The notes under the pieces are model-generated. The model did no database searches. It was not told the DNA's origin and saw only the letters and a program-made list of their open reading frames with translations. A program made the translations under genes and the position numbers. Positions 16,424 through 20,786 of a stretch of DNA of 64,000 nt are shown in pieces. This DNA comes from Phycisphaerae bacterium (lineage in GTDB: Bacteria; Planctomycetota; Phycisphaerae; SM23-33): NCBI GenBank assembly GCA_011050235.1, contig DRGC01000064.1:1-64000 (forward strand), read 5' to 3'. Positions within the stretch are counted from its first letter, which is position 1. Every line of letters begins with the position of its first letter.

Positions 16424-16452
16424 TTGTAGCCAGGCTGTGGGTGTGGTAAGAT
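16424..16452 (+). promoter_or_regulatory. Promoter of the hypermodification operon
   Basis: TTGTAG (16424-16429) and TAAGAT (16447-16452) have the ideal 17-base spacing. The -10 box lies inside the palindrome at 16445-16461. The start codon is 29 bases downstream of the -10 box. Confidence 0.55.
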
Positions 16453-16470
16453 TTTCTTACCAGTGGTAAG
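16445..16470. promoter_or_regulatory. Operator-like palindrome GGTAAG-N5-CTTACC with a third half-site
   Basis: GGTAAG at 16445-16450 and CTTACC at 16456-16461 form a perfect inverted pair; a third GGTAAG at 16465-16470 overlaps the ribosome site (TAAGGAG, 16467-16473). A dimeric repressor here would cover both the -10 box and the start of the message. The XRE protein encoded by the second gene is the obvious candidate ligand. Confidence 0.6.
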
Positions 16471-16480
16471 GAGCTTGGCC

Positions 16481-16765
16481 ATGACCAACAATGAAGCCAA
16501 AAAAGCCGTCATTACTGCCATTACCGACATACAAACGAAATCCGGGGACGAAGCGCCGAGTCTTCGTTCAAGCACGGTCGTCATCAACGGGGTCCCAGGC
16601 TTTGACAGCTTGCGCGGCCTGGAGCTTTCGGTTGCGATGGGTCGTTTATTCGAGATCGGGGATGATGTGAATATCTGTATTTCGGATGATGGCGAACGCG
16701 CGCTGACCGTCGCGGAGATTACCGACAAGCTGATGACGATGAAGCTGAAGTCTCAGGAGGAATAG
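16481..16765 (+). CDS. Acyl-carrier-protein-like protein
   Basis: The 94-residue acidic helical protein contains GVPGFDSLRGLELSVAMG; the DSL triad with Ser43 matches the 4'-phosphopantetheine attachment site of carrier proteins, and the following LFEIGDDVNI and LTVAEITDKLM fit helices II to IV of an ACP. It would hold an acyl or aminoacyl group as a thioester for transfer. No adenylating enzyme or phosphopantetheinyl transferase is encoded beside it, so the cargo is unknown. TAAGGAG precedes the ATG at 16481; a GTG at 16463 would add six residues. It is the first gene of a six-gene coupled operon whose other members point to pyrimidine modification. Confidence 0.72.
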   Translation: MTNNEAKKAVITAITDIQTKSGDEAPSLRSSTVVINGVPGFDSLRGLELSVAMGRLFEIGDDVNICISDDGERALTVAEITDKLMTMKLKSQEE

Positions 16766-16768
16766 ATA

Positions 16769-17113
16769 ATGGCGAAGAAGAAAGCACGCGATAGCATCGC
16801 AGATCGGCTCCGATCAGCCAGGGAGATGGCGGGTCTCTCCCAGGCCCAGGTTGCACGGATTCTGCATGTCCACCGTCCAACGATCACTGAGATGGAAGCC
16901 GGGAGAAGGAAGGTCTCGGCGGACGAATTACGTCAGTTGGCTGAGCTTTACGAGGTAGACATAGCATGGCTTGCTGGATCGCAGAGCACAGAGAACCAAC
17001 CAGGTGTCGAATTGGCCGCACGCGAGCTTGCAAAGCTGAAGAAGGACGATCTGGATCGGGTCCTCCAACTACTTCAATCCCTGCGCCGCGGCAAGGGGGC
17101 GGCAAGAGAATGA
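16769..17113 (+). CDS. XRE-family helix-turn-helix transcriptional regulator
   Basis: The 114-residue protein has a cro/C1-type HTH at about residues 10-66: IADRLRSAREMAGLSQAQVA, then ARILHVHRPTITEMEAGRRK and LRQLAELYEVDIAWLAG. The C-terminal tail (ARELAKLKKDDLDRVLQLLQ) is a likely dimerisation helix. AGGAGG lies before the ATG, three bases after the carrier-protein stop. Its stop overlaps the start of the ImmA-like gene by ATGA. XRE regulators paired with ImmA/IrrE peptidases are commonly repressors destroyed by that peptidase on induction. The palindrome at 16445-16470 is its likely operator, so the operon would be autoregulated. Confidence 0.92.
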   Translation: MAKKKARDSIADRLRSAREMAGLSQAQVARILHVHRPTITEMEAGRRKVSADELRQLAELYEVDIAWLAGSQSTENQPGVELAARELAKLKKDDLDRVLQLLQSLRRGKGAARE

Positions 17114-17955
17114 CTCCAAGGCCTCTCGAAAGAAGGGCGATCATCGCGGCTCTGAAGGTCAGGCAGGGCGCCGGGGTGCCCGACGACGTTCCGATCTGTT
17201 CGTACGACTTCGCCGTCAAGCAGGGAGTCGCCGTCCGTTTCATGCCCATTTCCAGCATGGAAGGTATCTATGATCGCCATTCGAAGACCATCGTCATTTC
17301 GTCGTTACGACCGTGGGGTCGTCGGGCCTTCACTTGCGCACACGAGTACGGACATCACGTCTTCGGCCATGGTGCCCACGTTGATGAGCTTCCGGAGGAG
17401 CGACAGGAACCACGTGCTCCCGAGGAACTACTTGCCGACCGGTTTGCGGGCTTTCTTCTCATGCCTCGGCTAGCCGTCCTGGATGGCTTTAGGAAACGAG
17501 GAGTAGACCCATCACGTTGTGGCCCCACGGATGCGTATATGATTGCCTGCTGGCTTGGGGTCAGCTATGGCGCGTTCTTAACACATGCAAGCCTTGCGGT
17601 TGGGGTCATGCCTAAGGGGGTTGCCGACGGCCTAAGAAGAGTCTCGCCGAAAGAGGTCAAGGCCGGACTCGCCCCCGGGTGTTTAGGAGATGAACTCATC
17701 GTGGTTGATGAGCACTGGGCAAATGCCCTTGACCTTGTCGTTGGTGACATTGCGATGCTTCCGGGAGGGACGATCGTTGAAGGTGCCGTCACAGAGACGA
17801 TCAACAAGACGTCAACAGCAACGTACGTTCGCGCTACGTCACGCGGAATTGGGCGAGCGCTACTAGGCCAATGGGCGGTAAGTATTCGCGTAATGCCTGC
17901 TGAGTATACGGGGCTCGCCAGATGCCGGCACATTCCGGAGGAAGACAATGCTTGA
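17110..17955 (+). CDS. ImmA/IrrE family zinc metallopeptidase
   Basis: The 281-residue protein contains AFTCAHEYGHHVFGHG, a zinc-binding HExxH site at residues 78-82, followed by ELLADRFAGFLLMP, the third-ligand helix typical of ImmA/IrrE proteins. In known pairs the peptidase cleaves the partner XRE repressor in response to DNA damage or a cell signal. The start at 17110 overlaps the XRE stop codon. The extra C-terminal domain (VSPKEVKAGLAPGCLGDELI onward, about 110 residues, strand-rich) may be a sensor for the inducing ligand. The frame is open upstream to 16966, but that part overlaps the XRE gene. Confidence 0.9.
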   Translation: MTPRPLERRAIIAALKVRQGAGVPDDVPICSYDFAVKQGVAVRFMPISSMEGIYDRHSKTIVISSLRPWGRRAFTCAHEYGHHVFGHGAHVDELPEERQEPRAPEELLADRFAGFLLMPRLAVLDGFRKRGVDPSRCGPTDAYMIACWLGVSYGAFLTHASLAVGVMPKGVADGLRRVSPKEVKAGLAPGCLGDELIVVDEHWANALDLVVGDIAMLPGGTIVEGAVTETINKTSTATYVRATSRGIGRALLGQWAVSIRVMPAEYTGLARCRHIPEEDNA

Positions 17956-18712
17956 TCCGGTCGTTATTACGTCACACTGCGCAACAATAGCCTGGGCAAA
18001 GGCTCTCATTCGAGTCTTGGGGCCCGGGGTAACTCCGTCGATACTCGTCCAAATCGAAGCGCCGGAAGGCCATATCAACGAGCACGACGATATTCGGTCG
18101 CTCCTGGCGCAAGCTCTCTCGCAGCGTGGCCTCTCTTCAATCGAGACGGTGGCAAATACCATTTTCCCCAATTCGCTGTGGAACCCGGGCCGCCCTCGCC
18201 AAGAGCTGTTTGACCGATACCGGGCTATCTGGCCTCGTGTCAAGAAATGCCGCGCCAACCACAACGGGGTCTATTTCCAGAGACTGATCGCTTTCCCCAA
18301 GTTTGGGGACGATGAAAGGAACCAACTTGACTATATCATCAACACCTACGCTAGCGGCAATCACCGGCACAGCGCTCATCAGGCGTCGATCTATGCACCT
18401 GCCGTAGACGCCACCAACCAAAGACAAAGAGGGTTCCCCTGCCTTCAGCAGGTGGCCTTCAGTATCGAGGGTGACAAGCTGACGGTCATTGGCTTCTATC
18501 CAACGCAGCACATCTTCGAGAAGGCGTACGGCAACTACCTTGGGCTGTGTCAGCTCGGAACCTTCATGGCACATGAGATTGGGATACCGTTTGCTGGAAT
18601 GCAATGCTTCGCAAGTCACCCCAAGGTTGGCGCAGCTGGCAAGACTGCTTTACGGCCGTTGGGACACCACATTGAGGGCTTCATCAGCACGTATGAAGCG
18701 AGGCAAACATGA
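17948..18712 (+). CDS. Thymidylate-synthase-like enzyme
   Basis: In this 254-residue protein the region from residue 163 (FPCLQQVAFSIEGDKL) to GN at 195-196 aligns without gaps to E. coli ThyA 144-177. Cys165 falls on catalytic Cys146, Lys177-Leu178 on Lys158-Leu159, and Asn196 on Asn177, which reads the uracil ring. The Arg166 and Asp169 positions are instead Pro185 and His188, and the FYPTQHIF...AYGN motif replaces YQRS...GLPFN. So it is a divergent family member, possibly a pyrimidine nucleotide hydroxymethylase rather than a housekeeping ThyA. GGAGG precedes the ATG, inside the end of the peptidase gene (8-base overlap). The alignment was made by hand. Confidence 0.75.
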   Translation: MLDPVVITSHCATIAWAKALIRVLGPGVTPSILVQIEAPEGHINEHDDIRSLLAQALSQRGLSSIETVANTIFPNSLWNPGRPRQELFDRYRAIWPRVKKCRANHNGVYFQRLIAFPKFGDDERNQLDYIINTYASGNHRHSAHQASIYAPAVDATNQRQRGFPCLQQVAFSIEGDKLTVIGFYPTQHIFEKAYGNYLGLCQLGTFMAHEIGIPFAGMQCFASHPKVGAAGKTALRPLGHHIEGFISTYEARQT

Positions 18713-19752
18713 GGACATTGGCCGAAGAACGGCCTTGCAGGCCATCCGAGCTCCGCAAGCGTTGGGCGCCTGTTGAGCCAACGGTCGTCTTTGATACCTA
18801 TTGGCGCTTCGCTGCCCAACGTCAAATGGTCTTCATGAAACGAGCCAGAGGCGACTGCGGACCGTGGACGGCTGATCCCATAGTCCAAACATATCGGTTC
18901 ACCAACGCGTATCGAGCATCTGATCGCGTTAGTCAGTACCTCATCCGTAACGTGATTTACGCCGGTGAGCGCCCGGCGGATGAGACCATCTTGAGAGTCT
19001 TACTGTTTAAGCTCTTCAACAAGATCGAGACGTGGGAACTGCTCTGCAATGAGTTCGGGGATGTGTCTCTTGGTACCTTTTCGGTCGATGCCTATGGTGA
19101 GGTCCTTTCAACCGCGATGGAGAGTGGGCTCCGCATATACTCGGCGGCATATATCATGCCGACCGGTGGCTCTCAGCTGGGGCATAGGCGAAAGCATCGC
19201 AACCACCTAGCGTTACTTGATATGATGATGGGTGCCGACGTCCCGGGGAAGCTGCAGCGGTGCTTGCGGATGGCCGATGCGTTCGACCTTCTGAAATCAT
19301 TCCCCACCATCGGTGATTTCCTCGCCTACCAGTTTGTCACCGATCTCAACTACACGGAGGTGATCGACTTTTCGGAGATGGACTTCGTTGTTCCCGGCCC
19401 TGGTGCCAAGAGCGGAATTCGAAAATGCTTCTCTGATCTGGGGGGTCTGACTGAGGAAGAAGTCATCTACCTTATGGCGCAACGGCAGGCAGAGGAATTT
19501 GAAGGTCTTGGGCTTCGATTTGAGGATCTCGGGGGGAGACCCTTGCAGTTGATTGACTGTCAGAACCTATTCTGCGAGACCGACAAGTATGCTCGACTGG
19601 CGCATCCGGGCATTCAGGGCATAGGTGATCGGACTCGTATCAAGCAGAAATTCCGGCCCAATCCAGGGCGGATCGACTACACATATCCCCCCAAGTGGGG
19701 CATCAATCAGAAGATCCAACAGCAACTCACTGGAGAAGAGGGTCAGGCATGA
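18709..19752 (+). CDS. DNA base hypermodification protein (5-hmdU DNA kinase helical / alpha-glutamyl-putrescinyl-thymine family)
   Basis: The 347-residue product has the family's conserved block at residues about 25-110: YWRFAAQRQMVFMKRARGD, PWTADPIVQTYRFTNAYRAS, DRVSQYLIRNVIY and LLFKLFNKIETWELL. This pattern is what is annotated as the helical domain of 5-hydroxymethyl-dU DNA kinase and the alpha-glutamyl/putrescinyl-thymine enzymes of phages. Those act on hydroxymethylated thymine in DNA, activating it for further substitution. Later segments, FLAYQFVTDLNYTEVIDF and DFVVPGPGAKSGIRKCF, are also family-like. No separate P-loop kinase domain is present. The start overlaps the previous stop (ATGA) and the stop overlaps the radical SAM start, so all three enzymes are made from one message. 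Confidence 0.78.
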   Translation: MRTLAEERPCRPSELRKRWAPVEPTVVFDTYWRFAAQRQMVFMKRARGDCGPWTADPIVQTYRFTNAYRASDRVSQYLIRNVIYAGERPADETILRVLLFKLFNKIETWELLCNEFGDVSLGTFSVDAYGEVLSTAMESGLRIYSAAYIMPTGGSQLGHRRKHRNHLALLDMMMGADVPGKLQRCLRMADAFDLLKSFPTIGDFLAYQFVTDLNYTEVIDFSEMDFVVPGPGAKSGIRKCFSDLGGLTEEEVIYLMAQRQAEEFEGLGLRFEDLGGRPLQLIDCQNLFCETDKYARLAHPGIQGIGDRTRIKQKFRPNPGRIDYTYPPKWGINQKIQQQLTGEEGQA

Positions 19753-20786
19753 AGGAAGAAGACATGCTTGGCGGCCCGTACCATCTGCGTGAGTTGAAAA
19801 TGGAGGTCACTCATCGGTGCTGCCTCCAATGTTTCCACTGCTCCAGTGAAGGTGGGCCACGAGAATCCCGCGAGATGTCGCTGGCCGACGCAATACGGAT
19901 TGTCCATGAAGCCAATGACATGCAGGTTGCGGAGTTGGCGATCTCGGGCGGAGAGGCCGTCATCTGGCGTGGCTTCGCGGAATTGCTGGACGTCATTGCA
20001 CAGTTGGAGATGAATGTGTCTCTGTACACATCAGGAGTTGGTGCGAGTATCCCAGCAGTCATAACGAGGATGGAGAGCATCCCCATCGCCCGATTGATCT
20101 TCAGCCTGTACAGCCACCGACCGGAGATACACGACCGTATTACGCAAAGGGAAGGGAGCCACAGTACGACGGTCGCCGCCATCGAGTCGGCCGTCGCGTT
20201 GGGGGTCCGAACAGAGCTACATTTCACAATCATGCGGTGCAACTACCGAGATCTGCTCGGAGTCTGCGAACTTGCTAAGGCCCTGGGGGTAAGCAAGGTC
20301 AGTGTCCTCCGGCTGGTGCCGCAGGGCCGGAGCCGTAATGCCACCGATGCCCGTTTCCTTGGCAGTGAGGACAATCTAGCACTCCAGGAGCTTGTGAAGA
20401 CTGCTAGAACGATCATCACTACCCGCGTCGGATCGCCATATGGGTTCCTGCACGTCAGCGACTCCCCGCAATGTAGTGCGGGAGTGGACCGGCTGATTGT
20501 CCTTCCAGACCTTTTGATTTCGCCATGCGATGCTTTCAAGCAGGTCAAACCACAAGATGTGGCGAGAACCGATGCCTATTCCAGATTGGACAAGTGGTCC
20601 CTGCGTGAGTGTTGGGAGCGGTCCCCTTATCTGCAGGCCATACGCCAACACCTAGAGGAGCCGCATGTCGCACCGTGCGAAGGATGTTCGGCCTTTGCCC
20701 GATGCTTCTCCGGCTGCACGGCACAGCGCTATCTTTCGCACGGGCAACTAGTGCGAGGCCCCGACCCTATGTGCCTTCGCGACTGA
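19749..20786 (+). CDS. Radical SAM/SPASM-type enzyme
   Basis: The 345-residue protein carries the radical SAM cluster motif C24-x3-C28-x2-C31 (THRCCLQCFHC), the ELAISGGEAVIW motif (GGE, SAM binding) and LIFSLYSHRPEIHDRIT. The Cys-rich C-terminus (APCEGCSAFARCFSGC and a final PDPMC) resembles a SPASM/twitch domain with auxiliary clusters. Such enzymes modify peptides, nucleosides or other substrates by radical chemistry. RiPP precursors are not visible nearby, and phage thymine-hypermodification pathways include radical SAM steps, so a nucleobase substrate is plausible. The ATG at 19749 overlaps the upstream stop. Last gene of the operon. Confidence 0.85.
   Translation: MKEEDMLGGPYHLRELKMEVTHRCCLQCFHCSSEGGPRESREMSLADAIRIVHEANDMQVAELAISGGEAVIWRGFAELLDVIAQLEMNVSLYTSGVGASIPAVITRMESIPIARLIFSLYSHRPEIHDRITQREGSHSTTVAAIESAVALGVRTELHFTIMRCNYRDLLGVCELAKALGVSKVSVLRLVPQGRSRNATDARFLGSEDNLALQELVKTARTIITTRVGSPYGFLHVSDSPQCSAGVDRLIVLPDLLISPCDAFKQVKPQDVARTDAYSRLDKWSLRECWERSPYLQAIRQHLEEPHVAPCEGCSAFARCFSGCTAQRYLSHGQLVRGPDPMCLRD

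Follow-up and report, generated by a model that had tools for sequence, protein, structure and literature searches.

The 64,000-nucleotide stretch analysed here (the window; contig DRGC01000064.1 of the Phycisphaerae bacterium assembly GCA_011050235.1) carries at 16424-20786 a compact six-gene operon. With modest confidence, we favour reading it as a mobile and self-contained operon, induced by stress, whose enzymes make a hypermodified pyrimidine, most likely for anti-phage defence. The parts of this reading differ in strength. That the cassette is widespread and regulates itself is well supported, and both base modification and defence are likely roles. Gene content, families, conservation, operator, mobility and the changes in one active site are observed; a hypermodified pyrimidine as product, an order of reactions, DNA as the final substrate and the use against phages are what we infer. 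Hypermodified thymines are a phage disguise. If the reading is right, hosts also make hypermodified bases on demand, from a cassette that its own repressor silences until DNA damage occurs.

A widespread and mobile cassette

The six genes lie on the same strand, 16481-20786 (+), and encode in order a carrier protein, an XRE-family repressor, an ImmA/IrrE-type metallopeptidase, a thymidylate synthase (TS)-like enzyme (TSL), a PF18723 protein and a radical S-adenosylmethionine/SPASM enzyme (rSAM). They are translationally coupled: ATGA overlaps join three of the gene pairs, an 8-nt overlap joins another, and a 3-nt gap separates the remaining one. An earlier reading of this DNA, made from the sequence only, had described six coupled genes, which these coordinates and overlaps and the same order in dozens of other loci bear out. 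It had also noted a composition richer in AT than the flanks, and so it proved: the cassette has a GC content of 0.53-0.58 and a GC content at third codon positions of 0.59-0.65, compared with 0.81-0.90 at third positions in the flanking genes tested, so that it is foreign to the region.

Searching GTDB genomes with the PF18723 protein yielded 375 relatives; 80 loci were selected from these, and the addition of Planctomycetota genomes brought the set to 87 loci. Profiles detected the carrier in 65 of these, XRE in 72, ImmA in 72, TSL in 75 and PF18723 in 87, in a single order. The order carrier-XRE-ImmA-TSL-PF18723 recurs on plasmids, in viral contigs and in at least 11 phyla, some of them taken from the names of metagenome-assembled genomes (Pseudomonadota, Cyanobacteriota, Planctomycetota, Chloroflexota, Verrucomicrobiota, Bacteroidota, Acidobacteriota, Thermodesulfobacteriota, Myxococcota, Balneolota and Bacillota). 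Since this order repeats in dozens of loci and many phyla, the cassette is not a chance assembly, and homologues of the operon genes are strongly co-conserved, so that the sequence-only reading is not refuted by the test of co-occurrence it had set.

Most of the TSL loci scored as carrier-negative either contain a carrier-like open reading frame (ORF) overlooked by the profile or are truncated at a contig end, and one TSL locus (L085) has neither XRE nor carrier. Three XRE-ImmA-TSL-MazG_C cassettes (L182, L183 and L184, with a carrier read in L184) have no PF18723 gene immediately nearby, so TSL can work without the PF18723 protein; conversely, TSL is missing from some loci with PF18723. Because each of the two occurs without the other, the core unit is carrier-XRE-ImmA-TSL, usually with PF18723. 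A third slot is filled nearly exclusively by MazG-MazG_C (52 loci), by canonical TS (23 loci, 22 of them with a deoxynucleoside monophosphate (dNMP) kinase) or by rSAM/SPASM (10 loci); MazG occurs together with rSAM in 0 loci, rSAM with TS in 0 and MazG with TS in 4. Along the PF18723 tree one module type gives way to another several times, so modules have been swapped; around the window sequence this tree is weakly resolved, and no donor lineage is named.

Conjugative plasmids and viral contigs carry copies of the cassette, so that the earlier description of the system as chromosomal was too narrow. ORFs next to two copies (L101 and L102) resemble phage structural genes, as read from their sequences, and integrases are present among the flank proteins (5/91). 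No clean empty site was found, the left flank (xylB) being conserved across the family and the right flank not. Some copies have defence-type neighbours, including the Gabija, ThsB, AriA and Schlafen families, TIR-SLOG and AbiEii.

A conserved operator and XRE-ImmA control

The promoter/operator region (16424..16480, +) contains a perfect palindrome, TGGTAAGA-TTT-TCTTACCA, at 16444-16462, which overlaps a -10-like TAAGAT and is adjoined by a third half-site, GTGGTAAG, at 16463-16470. The sequence GTAAGANNNTCTTAC is present once in the 4.0 Mb genome. The carrier start is ATG 16481; an alternative GTG at 16463 falls inside the third half-site. In 48 of 72 loci the core TAAGN5CTTA precedes the first cassette gene, where about 0.15 occurrences would be expected in all at a rate of 0.0021 per 240 nt, derived from its rarity elsewhere in the same loci. 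A TTGACA-like box stands 16-17 nt before this core in most of them, which places TAAGAT at -10. The operon thus brings its own operator, and regulator and site travel together.

The repressor gene (16769..17113, +), beginning 3 nt after the carrier gene, matches HTH_31 (4.6e-15) and PADLOC capH (9e-13). The ImmA gene (17110..17955, +), joined to it by an ATGA overlap, matches Peptidase_M78 (PF06114, 4.4e-12) and PADLOC capP (5e-13); the protein has an HEYGH motif, and its zinc-site residues are 96-97% conserved across the family. A helix-turn-helix repressor with an adjacent M78 protease bearing HExxH is the arrangement of CapH-CapP. The control by an XRE-ImmA pair foreseen from the sequence is therefore supported, and is strengthened by the conservation of the operator alongside the regulator. 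The proteases CapP (PMC13373217) and PprI (PMC10904395) are activated by single-stranded DNA (ssDNA), and by analogy the ImmA protein is a candidate for ssDNA-stimulated cleavage of its repressor.

A thymidylate synthase-like enzyme with an altered active site

The TSL gene (17948..18712, +; 8-nt overlap with the ImmA gene) has no Pfam match, but its product belongs to the TS superfamily. It matches the profiles TIGR03283 (3e-10) and phrog_5131 thymidylate synthase (2e-6), and its AlphaFold2 model, with a predicted local distance difference test score of 94.5, was matched by Foldseek to dCMP/CMP hydroxymethylases, MilA among them, and TS at 6e-8 and weaker. The residues of 75 TSL sequences were compared with those of canonical TSc7 proteins (22-23 of them), of the hydroxymethylase from phage SN1 and of the TS encoded by the host itself. 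Cys165, Asn196, Asp154, Tyr109 and Arg112 are each retained in 75/75 TSL sequences; Cys165 is the catalytic cysteine, and Asn196 stands at the uracil-selecting position of TS. The RSxD motif is lost, its Arg being present in 3/75 sequences and its Asp in 0/75, whereas both residues are kept in canonical TSc7 (22/22), in the TS of the same genome and in the SN1 hydroxymethylase. In classical TS, the RSxD arginine holds the 5'-phosphate and the aspartate contacts the folate pterin.

TSL thus has the fold, the nucleophilic cysteine and the asparagine of a classical TS or dUMP hydroxymethylase but not the RSxD motif, which makes an ordinary folate-dependent hydroxymethylase an unlikely identity for it. 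Because cysteine and asparagine are kept and RSxD is gone, it probably still adds its cysteine to the uracil ring, with a different donor or substrate. A carrier-bound donor is the natural guess, as the carrier accompanies TSL almost everywhere, and is offered as a working hypothesis. The TS-like assignment made from the sequence stands as to fold, while the enzyme lacks the Arg and Asp of classical TS and hydroxymethylases. A phage-type hydroxymethylase role is not supported for this gene; the true homologue of that enzyme, TSc7, is a separate optional gene missing from the window operon. The host's only detectable TS, elsewhere in its genome (contig C89, L104:7324-8226), is itself divergent, scoring 68 bits against PF00303; a ThyX was not detected in the host genome.

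The carrier, PF18723 and radical SAM proteins

The predicted phosphopantetheine carrier protein (16481..16765, +; 94 amino acids, PGFDSL motif) had no family match when searched singly. Its family profile matches acyl carrier proteins (ACPs) of the PDB at 1.6e-7, the attachment serine of the DS(L) motif is the sole invariant residue of the family (100%), a PP-binding match is present in 4 of 34 members, and NCBI labels one orthologue 'acyl carrier protein'. The host genome has one AcpS, and 30 of the 87 loci have a PF01648 holo-ACP synthase gene no more than 7 kb away, which is indirectly consistent with a putative phosphopantetheinylation of the carrier.

The next-to-last gene (18709..19752, +; ATGA overlap with TSL) encodes a protein related to HMUDK_hel and aGPT-Pplase1. 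Residues 26-303 match PF18723 HMUDK_hel with an E-value of 8.7e-108 and 360 bits against a cut-off of 25, and the family profile matches aGPT-Pplase1 of SN1/M6 (2e-29) and orf156 of CBA120 (Ackermannviridae; 2.5e-46). M6-like phages and Ackermannviridae have bases derived from 5-hydroxymethyl-deoxyuridine (5-hmdU) (PMC6449724, PMC9476957). Profile searches have thus upheld both this family assignment and the TS fold, as well as the proposed relation to phage thymidine hypermodification. The sequence-only reading had gone further and named the protein a 5-hmdU kinase/aGPT protein; the family is right, while the P-loop domain of a complete kinase is missing, and kinase was rejected as the function of the window gene, which has the helical domain only. 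A kinase adjoins or is fused to the PF18723 gene in 35/87 other loci, as in L020, where the fused domain is thymidylate-kinase-like. The PF18723 profile found no match among PDB sequences, and a fold search gave no significant match, most of its 50 rows being OGG1-type HhH DNA glycosylases. This resemblance in a predicted fold would fit, though it does not show, a base-flipping scaffold. In Brevibacterium phage LuckyBarnes (L108), one cluster unites the closest PF18723 protein from a phage with a TS and two glycosyltransferases, which suggests a glycosylated hypermodified base.

The last gene (19749..20786, +; ATGA overlap with the PF18723 gene) matches Radical_SAM (PF04055, 2.6e-15) and, below cut-off, mycofactocin/PqqE-type rSAM-SPASM profiles. 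In the 10 loci with this module, C24, C28 and C31 of the CxxxCxxC motif are invariant and the C-terminal SPASM cysteines C242, C260, C288, C310, C313, C319, C323 and C342 are at least 90% conserved. The protein also matches prokaryotic viperin profiles weakly (7e-11) and is closer to SPASM enzymes.

Accessory genes of other copies

The accessory genes are all nucleotide-related, and Nmad2 is accompanied by a ThsB-type TIR in 14/14 Nmad2 loci. A calcineurin-like phosphoesterase fused with a TS domain adjoins one cassette (L052:11538-13721), with two further copies in L024 and L030. TIR-SLOG (LD_cluster2) proteins stand by ThsB_TIR-Nmad2 pairs and PF18723 (L052:3015-5126, also L050, L058, L077, L088 and L012) and could possibly act as a sensor/effector for a modified nucleotide. 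DUF1643 or DUF1643-like proteins adjoin the cassette in L022 (12473-12979), L021, L029, L039, L102 and L184. The Rhizobium plasmid pRlX4 carries a variant (L099:1-7923) with caspase-family, pYEATS, ACPS, XRE, ImmA, C1 peptidase, DCD and PF18723 genes; its TSL is split over two ORFs, and the C1 peptidase is shared with the planctomycete loci L079 and L094.

Proposed function and alternative explanations

In the resting state, XRE would be bound to the palindrome TGGTAAGATTTTCTTACCA over the -10 region, keeping the operon silent. On the appearance of ssDNA or DNA damage, the ImmA-type protease would become active and cleave XRE, as in CapP/CapH and PprI/DdrO, and the operon would be derepressed. 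The conserved cysteine of TSL could then attack uracil C6 and a group be installed on C5, with the phosphopantetheine carrier supplying or holding this group and the rSAM/SPASM enzyme, in this operon, maturing it. The PF18723 protein, as kin of phage enzymes acting on 5-hydroxymethyl-dU in DNA, would engage the modified base, and the product would alter newly made phage DNA or the precursor pool. A more specific version, which we advance tentatively and would expect to need revision, is that TSL is a new TS-fold type working without folate, taking its C5 unit from the dedicated carrier (matured here by rSAM/SPASM) and, together with PF18723, writing a carbon-chain hypermodified base into the DNA of the infecting phage. 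If so, carrier-protein chemistry would be acting on nucleic acid and be used by the host against phages. The carrier and the loss of the folate site point to enzymology not found in the searchable literature, and the conserved operator, attachment serine and catalytic cysteine make each step accessible to single point mutants.

Several observations weigh against a defensive, base-modifying operon. The window operon has no recognisable gene for loading the carrier, no nuclease or other killing effector, and no P-loop kinase domain in 18709-19752 or elsewhere. Its immediate neighbours are housekeeping genes, and the enrichment of defence genes in the flanks of other copies was counted without a control set. 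Furthermore, two related loci had no DNA-level match in E. coli; the link to a validated E. coli system therefore stays at domain level.

The product could instead be a small diffusible nucleotide or nucleoside (a chain terminator, antimetabolite or signal) sensed by accessory TIR, SLOG or Nmad2 proteins. This is rather doubtful, if the best of the alternatives: the weak viperin match, the resemblance of TSL to MilA, a CMP hydroxymethylase of nucleoside-antibiotic synthesis, and accessory MazG, DCD, kinase and TIR-SLOG genes all point to nucleotide pools and sensing, whereas in phages the relatives of the PF18723 protein have DNA as their substrate (PMC6449724), the rSAM is nearer to SPASM enzymes than to viperin, and the window operon has no SLOG or TIR gene. 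A host stress or repair operon, or a secondary-metabolite pathway, unconnected to phages would agree with the DNA-damage-type control and with a carrier and rSAM that recall natural-product pathways. It is an unlikely explanation in view of the sporadic spread of the cassette (of 298 Phycisphaerae genomes, about 15 have strong TSL matches), its carriage by plasmids and viral contigs, and the phage-derived enzyme families. Least probable is a restriction-modification-like system in which host DNA bears a mark made by the cassette and DNA without it is destroyed by a variable effector; despite the kinship to DNA hypermodification and the Nmad2-ThsB_TIR pairs and methylases near some copies, it was rejected as the main reading because a self-marking system should not be under inducible repression, there is no conserved nuclease and most loci share no effector.

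Comparison with known systems

A hypermodifying, defensive operon would stand closest to the thymidine hypermodification pathways of phages (M6/SN1, ViI/CBA120 and phi W-14), which also combine a TS-superfamily enzyme, an aGPT-Pplase1/HMUDK protein and an rSAM. The cassette differs in its carrier, XRE-ImmA control and own operator, in a core TSL without RSxD and, in the window, in the missing P-loop kinase; the window rSAM is unrelated to that of SN1 at profile level. With MilA CMP 5-hydroxymethylase and TS, TSL has the fold, catalytic cysteine and uracil-selecting asparagine in common, and differs in the loss of the phosphate-binding arginine and folate-contacting aspartate throughout its family. 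Phage SP-15 has 5-(4,5-dihydroxypentyl)uracil, and its hydroxymethyl-dU synthase gene (130) adjoins a gene (129) named 'acyl carrier protein reductase' (PMC5977210). The five-carbon chain on uracil C5 and the ACP-reductase-named gene beside the synthase are likened to the cassette by description, the SP-15 pathway being unproved.

The regulatory pair has the same order, repressor then M78 protease, as CapH-CapP and DdrO-PprI. CapH-CapP governs CBASS, whereas the cassette pair sits after the carrier gene and governs a biosynthetic operon; the operator GTAAGA-N3-TCTTAC is conserved among cassettes, and the likeness to CapH-CapP is drawn from the proteins, not the sites.

According to the DefensePredictor main text, TS, dNMP kinase and 5-hmdU kinase domains are validated in E. 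coli anti-phage systems, Nmad is named in the same figure, and systems with aGPT-Pplase, MazG, MazG-C and dUTPase are predicted (PMC13092281). The families dNMPk, TSc7, Nmad2, MazG_C and DCD recur in the accessory modules of the cassette beside PF18723, and that main text makes no mention of the carrier, the XRE-ImmA pair or TSL. Some relatives are annotated at NCBI as 'putative DNA base hypermodification protein', 'thymidylate synthase' or 'acyl carrier protein'. In the searchable literature no description was found of the whole operon, of its operator, of the carrier or of the change in the TSL active site, although earlier papers (Iyer 2013, Burroughs 2015) may show related operons. The kind of system is thus already known through the anti-phage domains whose validation that main text describes (PMC13092281), and what is new is a carrier-dependent, self-regulated form with a conserved operator, an invariant carrier serine, a three-way third slot and an altered TSL active site.

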